DNA from: Buchnera aphidicola (Cinara cf. splendens/pseudotsugae 3390)
GTDB taxonomy: Bacteria; Pseudomonadota; Gammaproteobacteria; Enterobacterales; Enterobacteriaceae
DNA: 64,000 bases
Direction of reading: 5' to 3'
Assembly: GCF_900698845.1 (NCBI RefSeq)
Contig: NZ_LR217692.1
Span: forward strand, 248,001-312,000
Shown here in pieces: positions 21,440 to 63,294 of the stretch. Numbering within the stretch: position 1 is the first letter of the stretch; every line of letters begins with the position of its first letter. The position numbers were made by a program, and so were the translations under genes. The notes under the pieces are model-generated. The model did not search any database, had not been told where the DNA came from, and saw nothing but the letters and a program-made list of their open reading frames with translations.

Positions 21440-22404
21440 ATGAATACTATTCATGCTAAACCAATATCCATTATCATTACGAAACATATGTCAGAGCAAA
21501 GAATCGATAATTTTTTATTCAAAACTTTTAAAAAATTACCTAAAAGAATGATATACCGTAGTATACGAATAGGAAAAATAAAAATTAATAAAAAAAAAGT
21601 ACAACCATTTTATAAATTAAAAATACATGATAATCTTACTCTATACTCAATAAAAATTGAGATAAAAAAAAAAAAATTAATTTAAAATCATCAACAGTGC
21701 ATTTATTTTTAAAAAATATATTATTTGAAGATAAATATTTAATTATTTTTAATAAACCATATGGAATTGCAGTACACGGAGGAAGCGGTATAAATTATGG
21801 TGTAATAGAAATATTTAGAAAAATTCGTCAAGAACTAAAATTTCTAGAATTAGTTCATCGCATTGACAAAGAAACGTCTGGAATATTAATGCTTGCAAAA
21901 AAACGTTCTATTTTAAAAAAAATGCATGAAAATTTAAGAAATAAATTAATATATAAAGAATATTTAGCATTATTGCATGGTCGTTGGTCCGAAAAAAATA
22001 CTACGGTTAATCTTCCTTTGCTCAAAAAAAAAAATGATCATCAAAAAAAAAAAGTATGCGTTCACAAAAACGGAAAGCCGTCAACTACTTGTTTTAAAAT
22101 TTTTCAATACTTCCATAATACCACTCTTATGTCCGTAATTCCAATAACAGGACGTACACATCAAATTCGAGTACATGCTGCACAATTTGGACATCCTGTT
22201 GTTTTTGATCAAAAATACGGAAACATTAAAAAAGAAAAAAAAATCATCCATAAAAAGAATGGCAGACTGTTATTACACGCTTACAAAATCTTTTTTTATC
22301 ATCCACTAAGTAATAAAAAAATTTTTATAACTGCTAAATTAGATGAACAATTTAAAAAATTATTGAAAATATTTTCAAAAAAAAATATATTTAATAACTT
22401 TTAA
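21440..22404 (+). pseudogene. rluC: 23S rRNA pseudouridine synthase RluC, split at an A13 tract
   Basis: RluC makes three pseudouridines in 23S rRNA. The gene lies in two frames. Frame 1 (21440-21685, 81 codons) is the S4 RNA-binding domain with QRIDNFLFKTFKKLPKRMIYRSIRIGKIKINKKKV. Frame 2 (open from about 21670 to 22404) is the catalytic domain with VHGGSGINYGVIE, the catalytic-Asp motif ELVHRIDKETSGILMLAKK and TGRTHQIRVHAAQFGHPV. The break is a run of 13 A at 21664-21676. One added A joins the frames into a 321-residue protein (E. coli 319). The downstream frame also has a GTG at 21697. The catalytic domain is well preserved, so rescue by slippage is plausible; a homopolymer sequencing error is the alternative. 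Confidence 0.88.
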
Positions 22405-22977: not shown

Positions 22978-23916
22978 ATGAAAAAAATTTCATTAATTTT
23001 TCCAGGATATGGATTATCTAATATAGATTGCTTAAAATTATTTTTTAAAAAACATATTATAATAAGAAAAACGTTTGAAGAAGCATCTGATATCTTGCAT
23101 AAGAATATATACAATAACTGTTTTAAAAAAAAAAATAATCCTTTGTATCTAAAAAAAAACATGCATTTATTAATATTTATATCATCTATTGCAATATATA
23201 AATTATTAAATCAAAAAATATACATTAAACCATCTATTTTTGCTGGACATAGCTTAGGTCAATATTCAGCATTAGTATGTAATAATAATATCTTGTTTCA
23301 AGAAGCTTTAAAAATTGTAAATATACGTCATAAAATAATGTTGTTAGCCGTAAAAGATACCCGAGTATTAACATTAGTTATAATTGGACTAAATTATATT
23401 TTGATTGAAAAAATTTGTTCATTAATTTCAAATAAAAAAAAAGTATTTATTTCTATTATTAATTCTAAAACACAAGTAGTGATAACTGGACATTACTCAG
23501 CAGTATATACAGCCGGTCAAATATTTAAAAAACAATTACATGTAAAAGTAATACGTTTACCTATACCATTTACATCACACTGTTTTCTCATGAAAAATTA
23601 TAAAAAAAAATTTTCTAGATCTTTAAGAAAGATAAAGATATCAAAAGGAAAATATCCTATCATTGGCAATTATCGTTCAAAAATTTTAACTTCTAAACAA
23701 GACATATATATTTCATTACTAAAACAAATATATAAAAAAGTACATTGGAAACAATGTATTATGAAAATAATTTCTATGGGTATCAGTATTTTTATTGAAG
23801 TAGGATTGGGAAAAGTTTTAACAAATTTAAATAAAGAATATCGTAAAATTTCATCATACTCGACTAATAATAACCAAAAACTATCATTAATTATTGATAT
23901 AATAAAAAAATTATGA
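22978..23916 (+). CDS. fabD: Malonyl-CoA:ACP transacylase
   Basis: Transfers malonyl from CoA to acyl carrier protein, supplying chain-extension units for fatty acid synthesis. The 312 residues (E. coli 309) contain the nucleophile motif AGHSLGQYSALV with Ser92, the conserved Arg in VNIRHKIM near 117 and the catalytic His in PFTSHCFLM near 200. The N-terminal FPGQG motif reads FPGYG here (Tyr at residue 11). EVGLGKVL near 280 is also conserved. The stop overlaps the start of fabG by four bases (ATGA), indicating translational coupling. Confidence 0.95.
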   Translation: MKKISLIFPGYGLSNIDCLKLFFKKHIIIRKTFEEASDILHKNIYNNCFKKKNNPLYLKKNMHLLIFISSIAIYKLLNQKIYIKPSIFAGHSLGQYSALVCNNNILFQEALKIVNIRHKIMLLAVKDTRVLTLVIIGLNYILIEKICSLISNKKKVFISIINSKTQVVITGHYSAVYTAGQIFKKQLHVKVIRLPIPFTSHCFLMKNYKKKFSRSLRKIKISKGKYPIIGNYRSKILTSKQDIYISLLKQIYKKVHWKQCIMKIISMGISIFIEVGLGKVLTNLNKEYRKISSYSTNNNQKLSLIIDIIKKL

Positions 23917-26000: not shown

Positions 26001-26806
26001 ATGTTTCTAATAGATACTCATTGTCACATTAACCGTATAGACGATACCAATAAGCCTGAAAAATTAGATTGTATTTTAAAAAAAGCATATACAAATAATA
26101 TAAAATTATTCTTATCTGTATCTACTTCTATTGAAGATTTTTATAATTTATACCAATATACTTATACCCATAAAAATATTTTACTATCATGTGGTTTACA
26201 TCCTAATGATCAACATACAAATAATGATTTACAGACAATACTATCATTATCTAAAAAAAAAAAGTTATTGCAATTGGAGAAACAGGATTAGATTTTTATA
26301 GATCTATAAAAAATAAAAATAAGCAAATTGAATTATTCAGACATCATTTACATATATCTGATATAACTAAAAAACCTCTAATTATTCATAATAGATGTGC
26401 TGATTACGAAATATTTCAATCTCTAAATTCAAATAAAAATAAATCATATTCCGGAGTTATACATTCTTTTACAGGAACGATAGATATAGCAAGAAAATTT
26501 TTAGATGCTGGATTCTATATATCATTTTCTGGAATTATTACGTTTAAAAAATCTAATGATTTAAGAAAAGTATTAAATTTTATACCATTGAATAGATTAT
26601 GTATAGAAACAGATGCACCTTATTTATCTCCAGAGCCGTATAGAGGAATAATTAATCAACCATATTTTTTATATTATATAGCAAAAACTATTCAAGAATA
26701 TTTAAAAATTGACTTTTTTGAATTTACTAAAATTTTAAACAATAATTTTTTTAAATTGTTTAATGTTGAAAAAAAAAATATAGCTAATCTTATCGATACT
26801 AAATAA
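26001..26806 (+). pseudogene. tatD: TatD-family metal-dependent hydrolase (YcfH), split at an A11 tract
   Basis: YcfH/TatD proteins are TIM-barrel metallo-hydrolases with reported nuclease activity. Frame 1 (26001-26291) starts MFLIDTHCHINRID with the metal-binding HxH and ends out of frame. Frame 2 continues VIAIGETGLDFYRS, KPLIIHNRCAD, GVIHSFTG and LCIETDAPYLSPEPYRG to the stop at 26806, covering all later metal ligands. The break is a run of 11 A (26253-26263). One added A gives TCT AAA x4 GTT and a 268-residue protein (E. coli YcfH 265). All catalytic residues survive, so the gene may still work through slippage. Usual position after holB. Confidence 0.88.
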
Positions 26807-34241: not shown

Positions 34242-35267
34242 ATGAAAACACTATATAAAAAAAGTTTTTTACAATTTTCAGATTTTACACAAGAAGAAAT
34301 TTTATATTTAATTAAATTATCTGGATTTGTAAAAAACCAAAAAAATAAAAAAAAAGAAAAAAAATACTTAAAAGGAAAAAAAATAGTATTAATTTTTGAA
34401 AAACAATCTACTAGAACTAGATGTGCTTTCGAAATAGCTGCTAATGATCAAGGTGCCTATACTACATATATTGGTCCTCATGATACTCATATTGGATATA
34501 AAGAATCTATTCAGGATTCTGCAAAAATACTAGGTACAATATATGATGGAATACAGTACAGAGGTTATGATGATAAAGTTCTTCATGACTTTAAAAAATA
34601 TTCCAATAAACCGGTTTGGAACGGTTTGACTAATACTTTCCATCCTACTCAAATTTTAGCAGATTTATTTACCATGAAAGAAATCTATCCTAATAAAAAA
34701 TTACAAAAAATAAGATGTGCATATATAGGAGACGCTCAAAATAATATAGCAAATACACTTTTAGACGCAGCTACTTTTATGAATTTAAAAATAAATATTG
34801 TATCTCCTAAAATATATCAACCTAAAAAAAATTTTTTATTAAATTTGAATAAAAAAAGAAAAAAAAATACCAATATTTTGTATACTGATAATATTGAGAA
34901 AGGTGTAAAAAACGTTGATTTTATTTATACTGATGTATGGGTTTCTATGGGAGAAAAAAAAAGTGCTTGGGAAAAAAAAATAAAAACACTATATCCTTAC
35001 CAAGTTAATCAAAAAATATTAGATATGACAGAAAACCCTAATATTAAGATACTGCATTGTTTACCAGCGTTACACGATAAACAATCTTCTTTAGGATTAG
35101 AAATTCATAATATATTCAATATCAAAAATGGATTAGAAATTAGTAATGACGTTTTTAATTCTAATTTTAATATCAGTTTTCAACAATCAGACAATCGATT
35201 GCATACAATTAAAGCTCTATTAATATCATGCTTATCAAAAAAAATTTTTTTTAAAAGTAAAAACTAA
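34242..35267 (+). CDS. argF: Ornithine carbamoyltransferase
   Basis: Joins ornithine and carbamoyl phosphate to citrulline in arginine synthesis. The 341 residues (E. coli ArgF/ArgI 334) carry the carbamoyl-phosphate site KQSTRTRCAFE near 52-62, the HPTQ loop in TFHPTQILADL near 132-142, YTDVWVSMGE near 230 and the ornithine loop HCLPALHD near 272-279. Whether it descends from argF or argI cannot be told here. A ribosome site (AGGA) lies upstream of the ATG. ridA follows after about 75 bases, the neighbourhood known for argI-yjgF in enterobacteria. Confidence 0.95.
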   Translation: MKTLYKKSFLQFSDFTQEEILYLIKLSGFVKNQKNKKKEKKYLKGKKIVLIFEKQSTRTRCAFEIAANDQGAYTTYIGPHDTHIGYKESIQDSAKILGTIYDGIQYRGYDDKVLHDFKKYSNKPVWNGLTNTFHPTQILADLFTMKEIYPNKKLQKIRCAYIGDAQNNIANTLLDAATFMNLKINIVSPKIYQPKKNFLLNLNKKRKKNTNILYTDNIEKGVKNVDFIYTDVWVSMGEKKSAWEKKIKTLYPYQVNQKILDMTENPNIKILHCLPALHDKQSSLGLEIHNIFNIKNGLEISNDVFNSNFNISFQQSDNRLHTIKALLISCLSKKIFFKSKN

Positions 35268-62326: not shown

Positions 62327-63294
62327 TTATACCATATCTTCACAATATAATAATGTAAGCAGATGCACCATGTCTAGAGGAGGACTGGTTATCCAAGTTT
62401 TTAATTCATCGGTTACAGGGTGTACAAAGCTTAACATTCTAGAATGTAGAGACGGTCTGGAAAATCTACACAAAAAAATACATGTTTTTTTAGAATATCC
62501 CAGTGAATTATATCTTATTCCTTTAGAATATGTACTATCTCCAAATATAGGGTGAGCAATGGAAGAAAAATGTACTCTAATTTGATGCATTCTCCCTGTT
62601 TTTATTTGTACACGAACATATGTATAATTTTTGAATCTAGTAATAACTTTGTAGTGAGTAATTGCTTTTTTTCCTCCGCTACCAATTGTCATAATAGTTC
62701 GACGATAAATGTTTCTTTTAATTGGATAATTGATACTTCCATTTCGTCCAATTCTTCCAACAACAATAGCGTCGTATTCTTTAATTATTTTACGGTTTTT
62801 AAACAAACCAATTAAATAATTATATGCTAAAATTGTTTTAGCCACGACTAACAAACCTGATGTATTTTTATCTAATCTATGAACTATACCCGCTCTAGGT
62901 AAACTGGAATTACTTTTATAATGAAAAATTAAAGCGTTTAATAATGTTCCAGATATATTTCCATAACCTAAATGAACAACAAAATTAGATGGTTTATTAA
63001 TTATCAATATCTCAGAATCTTCAAAAATAATATCTAATGGTATATTTTCTTTTTTTATTTTGGTGAGATTGAATTCATTATTGACGCACACAATAATTAA
63101 ATCATTAAAAAAAATTTTTTTTTTGGAACAGTAACAATAACATCATTTACAGATATACATCCTGATAAAATCCATTTTTTTATACACGAACGAGATATTG
63201 GAAAAAACTTTTGAACTAAAATTTTATCCAATCTACAAGACTTTAATTTTGACACAGTAGATATAAATTTTAATTTTATTGTATTAGAAGACAT
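62327..63294 (-). pseudogene. rluD: 23S rRNA pseudouridine synthase RluD, split at an A10-T8 tract
   Basis: RluD makes pseudouridines 1911, 1915 and 1917 in helix 69 of 23S rRNA. Frame 1 (63294-63097) is the S4 domain (CRLDKILVQKFFPISRSCIKKWILSGCISVND). Frame 2 (from about 63115 down to 62327) is the catalytic domain with IPLDIIFEDSEILIINKP, AGIVHRLDKNTSGLLVVAKT (catalytic Asp) and TGRMHQIRVHFSSIAHPIFGD. The switch is at 10 A followed by 8 T on the minus strand (63124-63107). One added A yields VPKKKIFFNDLIIV and a 322-residue protein (E. coli 326). All catalytic motifs are intact, so slippage rescue is plausible. Confidence 0.88.

Follow-up and report, generated by a model that had tools for sequence, protein, structure and literature searches.

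Poly(A) frameshifts in genes of Buchnera and Blochmannia are reportedly rescued by polymerase slippage, and Tamas et al. (2008) are said to have measured the transcripts, in mur and his genes (cited in PMC5009743, PMC3164680 and PMC3017870). In Blochmannia, ancient homopolymer frameshifts are also said to be maintained by selection, as reported by Wernegreen, Kauppinen and Degnan in 2010 (cited in PMC4389277). A third system is dnaX, which is recoded at an A tract through slippage in Thermus and through a -1 ribosomal frameshift in E. coli. The rluC locus described here resembles the cases of Tamas et al. in being a one-base error at a long A tract, in the AT-rich genome of an obligate symbiont, in an otherwise intact gene whose product is almost certainly needed; it differs in that transcripts were measured there, whereas rluC is known from genome comparison only. 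With the Blochmannia frameshifts it shares a break that is conserved between species in a gene that has not decayed. Unlike them, our cases concern rluC and rluD, in a Buchnera genus and, several times over, outside it, with counts of the sense of the break and of the tract length. Like dnaX, rluC would involve recoding at an A tract, but dnaX gives two functional products per gene, while the short S4 peptide of rluC has no apparent use. Regarding the literature, excerpts of two papers (PMC4389277, PMC3017870) present the slippage phenomenon, ancient breaks kept by selection included, as already established. A split rluD has also been described in another insect symbiont, Blochmanniella BSEQ; the excerpted paper reads this break, which may or may not be of the A-tract type, as a loss (PMC12779916). 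We found no earlier description, in the open-access literature searched, of the rluC break in this genus, of its recurrence in other genera or of the shared rluD site. We present rluC as a new and well-supported instance of a rescue trick already known.

The window analyzed here is a stretch of 64,000 nucleotides of Buchnera aphidicola, whose genome measures 453 kb; it covers positions 248001-312000 of the main contig. Its rluC locus has the following layout:

21440..21685, plus strand: 5' part of rluC, an ORF of 81 aa for the S4 RNA-binding domain, with a TAA three codons past the A tract (Pfam PF01479, 28.8 bits; NCBIfam RluC model positions 11-78)
21664..21676, plus strand: A13 tract, the proposed slippage site of rluC; the downstream frame is short by one nucleotide, and 15 of the 96 loci surveyed have a break of the same sense, at A10-A15
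21661..22404, plus strand: 3' part of rluC, encoding the pseudouridine synthase catalytic domain; this -1 frame is open from position 21661 on, with GTG at 21697 as the first NTG start (PF00849, 100.7 bits)

The original prediction placed an A13 at 21664-21676 with a stop three codons further on, and the letters that follow the tract, TTA ATT TAA, are as it described. It also held that the catalytic domain continues in the -1 frame, where the second ORF (listed from GTG 21697 to 22404, 235 aa) matches Pfam PseudoU_synth_2 over its residues 14-163, with 100.7 bits against a cut-off of 26.8. The first ORF carries the Pfam S4 domain (residues 20-64), with 28.8 bits and a cut-off of 22.8, and the two pieces jointly hold the S4 domain and an RluA-type catalytic domain. 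As had been proposed, the break falls between both Pfam domains, in a lysine-rich linker. Translation with one added A gives a read-through protein of 321 aa, the length that had been announced. E. coli RluC has 319 aa and the NCBIfam RluC model 317 positions. That model (NF008249, described in NCBIfam as 23S pseudouridine 955/2504/2580 synthase) is by a wide margin the top model for both pieces, with 56 and 262 bits. Neither of them reaches its curated cut-off of 378 bits, and nor do the naturally intact rluC genes of genomes G009 and G004, with 324 and 325 bits; the cut-off is thus too high for this AT-rich genus. The best structure match of the catalytic part is E. coli RluC (1xpi, 1.5e-60). 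By its best model and this PDB match, the predicted product is filed as RluC-like. A short hairpin lies at 21650-21663 on the plus strand, directly 5' of the A13; several relatives have one too, with different letters.

We then surveyed the rluC frame in 96 loci, 16 from the genus and 80 from the same family, in genomes chosen at no more than about 1 Mb with the exception of L060, which belongs to a 1.6-Mb genome. The gene is present in all 16 genus genomes. The S4 part was located with a profile built from those 16 genomes, which could favour the genus, yet all three frames were scored alike. The frame is intact in 76 loci, 15 loci lack one base, the third frame does not occur, and in 5 loci an S4 could not be recognised. 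The broken genes come from 11 of the 16 genus genomes (G000, G003, G011, G015, G001, G002, G007, G005, G006, G012 and G008) and from G271, G138, G022 and G063, each belonging to another genus. Each of the 15 breaks coincides with a run of A in the linker, 10 to 15 long; in G003 and G011 this is an A11 followed by a base other than A. On a tree of 84 genomes, built from two catalytic domains and leaving G063 out, nine genus breaks group as one clade (support 84, not starred). The break state of rluC changes at least 6 times on this tree, a minimum that does not distinguish gain from reversal and comes from a 'quick' method with many weak forks. The rluC frameshift appears to be old and common to related species. 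In addition, the rluC match of G224 (L112) is broken within the catalytic domain, with two frames.

Regarding selection, nine pairs of broken species gave dN/dS values of 0.00-0.36 for the S4 part, where the estimates use only about 40-47 synonymous sites, and of 0.12-0.21 for the catalytic part. The corresponding values were 0.26 and 0.30 for an intact pair (G010, G013), and 0.47 and 0.33 for a mixed pair (G014, G008). Both halves of rluC seem to be under purifying selection, in a gene that appears otherwise intact. A break that is shared among species and lies in a gene under purifying selection is unlikely to be a sequencing error or a fresh pseudogene. Among the 16 genus loci, all 19 runs of A11 or longer within the catalytic domain keep the frame, and 11 of the 14 such runs in the linker are out of frame. 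The catalytic-domain runs show that long runs alone do not break rluC; breaks persist at sites able to bear them.

Beyond the original prediction, rluD and a tatD-family gene of the same window are broken likewise, which makes the pattern a general one. Their parts are:

63097..63294, minus strand: 5' part of rluD, an ORF of 65 aa with an incomplete S4 domain (NCBIfam RluD model positions 9-59)
63115..63124, minus strand: A10 tract in the S4 domain of rluD, of the same sense as in rluC; the gene is split in 14 of the 16 genus genomes
62327..63142, minus strand: 3' part of rluD, the remaining S4 and the catalytic domain in another frame; the coordinates are the extent of the open frame (NCBIfam RluD, 266.8 bits; TIGR00005 above its cut-off)
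26001..26291, plus strand: 5' part of the tatD-family (YcfH-like) gene (NF008075 positions 1-91)
26253..26263, plus strand: A11 tract breaking tatD, of the same sense; the same break is found in G003 and G011, and G005 is in frame
26255..26806, plus strand: 3' part of the tatD-family gene in another frame (TIGR00010, 194 bits)

The rluD break falls inside the S4 domain and that of tatD inside the enzyme. In the stretch examined from G015, the second tatD motif was not seen. Of 95 rluD loci, 24 are broken, 66 are in frame, none is of the other sense and 5 were unplaced. The broken genes correspond to the 14 genus genomes and to 10 others from seven genera, 23 of them at the same A9-A10 site within the S4 domain, and on the tree the break state of rluD changes at least 10 times. 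G009 likewise has the rluD break.

We compared the ORFs of the window with those of the corresponding regions in seven other genomes and obtained 19 frame-changing rows. In 14 of them the change is at a run of at least nine, and each of these would be put right by one added base: rluC, tatD and rluD in the window; rluC and rluD in G002; rluD in G004 and in G009; rluC, fabD and rluD in G012; uup in G010; holB, at a T9, in G013; and fabD and trmD in G207, with fabD named from its position and its identity to the fabD of the window. The other five rows lack a run of nine, and two of these have a run of seven and were counted as weak candidates. Outside the window, the fatty-acid gene fabZ is split at a T12 in the sampled stretch of G000 (L233 13509-13520) and needs one extra base as well.

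As a control, we chose fabD, for being the neighbour of rluC, and searched for it in 91 genomes. It was found in 85, and in 13 of these it is split at a run of nine or more. Ten of the 13 breaks need one extra base and three are of the opposite sense; the latter, at an A10, belong to G124, G230 and G301 (L053, L055 and L093), all three sampled genomes of genus g110, the break of G124 being recognised only by eye. The statement that all breaks need an added base is hence true for rluC and rluD and false for fabD in these three genomes. According to this control, fabD is broken as often, which leaves rluC and rluD without special standing and weakens the idea of a special role for either of them. 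A count by hand over the sampled loci gives 28 of 29 lineages in which an insertion is needed, a descriptive figure given that the loci were partly picked because breaks were seen there.

To put tract length into numbers, we counted the runs on the coding strands of the compared stretches in seven genus genomes, which hold 545 runs of A9 or longer and 1394 runs of A7-A8. Breaks counted gene by genome were 11 at the longer runs; at the A7-A8 runs there were none that were clear and two weak candidates (Fisher 3.5e-5). When each gene is counted once, the comparison is 5 vs 2, with a value of 0.02. Related genomes are not independent in these statistics, and long runs also mutate more. rluC itself, with its A13, shows the single break in an A/T homopolymer of about nine or more.

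Taking these results together, we think it likely that rluC is a working gene and that insertional transcriptional slippage at the A13 makes some full-length RluC. Its one-base frameshift, an old one, sits in the lysine-rich linker that joins the S4 and the catalytic domains. As RNA polymerase crosses the A13, the RNA would slip on the DNA and some transcripts would gain one A; these A14 transcripts would give a full-length RluC of about 321 residues, and the remaining ones the 81-residue S4 peptide. The linker presumably bears a variable number of lysines, a tolerance that would explain why the break has persisted. Rescue by slippage at poly(A), which the original prediction had put forward, comes out as the best-supported reading given the same-sense break in 11 of the 16 genus genomes and the conserved halves, and it is from such sequence comparison that we infer both the slippage at the A13 and the production of the full-length enzyme.

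The sense of the breaks, their length threshold and their persistence fit slippage, a process known in Buchnera. In the excerpted RNA sequencing study of Buchnera, 151 of 157 transcription insertions were in homopolymers, vs 16 deletions, and the insertions were mostly of single bases and rose with run length (PMC5574713). Corrected transcripts of such endosymbiont genes amount to 12-50% according to a review (PMC5009743). On the other hand, another review reports for E. coli polymerase a predominance of deletions on A11 in vitro and more slippage on T than on A in vivo (PMC6260861), which counts against a universal insertion bias. One could also argue that DNA contraction of A tracts could by itself yield the sense bias, and that tract instability alone could yield the length threshold; besides, one fabD lineage (g110, three genomes) has the opposite sense at A10. 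A contraction bias without selection could indeed set the sense, but the purifying selection on the breaks that persist means that some rescue would still be required.

That rescue could in principle take place at the ribosome. In -1 ribosomal frameshifting, ribosomes would move backwards by one base at the A AAA AAA codons of the tract and go on in the catalytic frame, and the same protein would be made from an mRNA identical to the DNA. By inspection, every tract consists of lysine codons with A AAA AAA in register, and the direction needed is the -1 direction. However, tracts of A7-A8 would suffice for a ribosomal slip, yet the breaks are found at A9 or more, and the poly(T) breaks in fabZ and holB obey the same rule, though U runs can slip too. 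No stimulator was detected in the 100 nt downstream, which fold no better than shuffles (z 0.05 for rluC and 1.08 for rluD). A segment spanning the rluC tract did give a folding z of -2.25 (4/200), derived from the hairpin just upstream and largely dictated by the protein sequence. A hairpin 5' of the tract in G000, G003, G011, G015, G006, G007 and G012 was considered as a possible stimulatory RNA structure; it is mostly set by Ser-Ile-x-Ile-Asp/Glu codons. Overall, we regard ribosomal frameshifting as unlikely.

We also weighed gene fission, with the S4 peptide and the catalytic domain made and working as separate proteins. The rluC break lies between two domains, both halves are conserved, the PDB entries for E. 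coli RluC cover just the catalytic part, and the GTG at 21697 is 12 bases past the stop of the S4 ORF. Nevertheless, between the tract and the conserved ED motif, in the catalytic frame, none of the 15 broken rluC genes has an ATG and 8 of the 15 have no ATG, GTG or TTG; among the 24 broken rluD genes, none has an ATG and 18 lack any start. The rluD and tatD breaks lie within the S4 domain and the enzyme, respectively, and fission leaves the sense bias unexplained. Since no starts are conserved and the rluD break is inside a domain, fission with reinitiation was rejected, and we hold fission to be very improbable.

We give equally little credence to rluC being a pseudogene on its way out. In published Buchnera work, many frameshifts at homopolymers are classed as recent inactivations (PMC3164680), and a 2025 paper reads the broken Blochmanniella rluD as lost (PMC12779916). 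In the case of rluC, though, the break is common to nine species of one clade, and dN/dS is well below 1 on both sides of it.

A more elaborate possibility is a feedback, modelled on release factor 2, which controls itself: the RluC and RluD breaks would recur because ribosomes without their pseudouridines would change frame more often and thereby raise the output of the enzyme. According to the excerpted source, mutations in helix 69 raise both -1 and +1 frameshifting (PMC1190176). The support for the feedback comes down to this effect and to the recurrence in both genes; fabD, a gene unrelated to ribosomes, shows breaks just as frequently (13 of 85), and tatD, fabZ, trmD, holB and uup are broken too, so we find it extremely unlikely. 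Finally, a sequencing or assembly error, the objection that the original prediction had itself raised, is almost certainly not the explanation: homopolymers are error-prone and undercalling would yield this sense, but 11 of the 16 genus genomes agree on a break of the same sense, their tracts ranging from 11 to 15 A; no such error is seen at the 19 tracts of like length within the catalytic domain, and G009 also has the rluD break.

If the rescue of rluC by transcriptional slippage holds true, many 'pseudogenes' of tiny symbiont genomes, including those of rRNA-modifying and fatty-acid enzymes, are live, and gene-loss counts are mistaken where they score a split rluC, rluD or fabD as absent. 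The 28 of 29 lineages that need one extra base agree with the share of insertions in transcription (151 vs 16), suggesting that genome comparison records the polymerase errors able to save a gene. From this follows a testable rule, by which breaks that need an insertion persist and those that need a deletion decay.

Elsewhere in the window, positions 23916 and 24958 were considered as break candidates and rejected, being boundaries between neighbouring ORFs (fabD/fabG, and acpP with the next ORF, respectively). A further break candidate is an A8T8 sequence at 35237-35252 on the plus strand, at an ORF junction.
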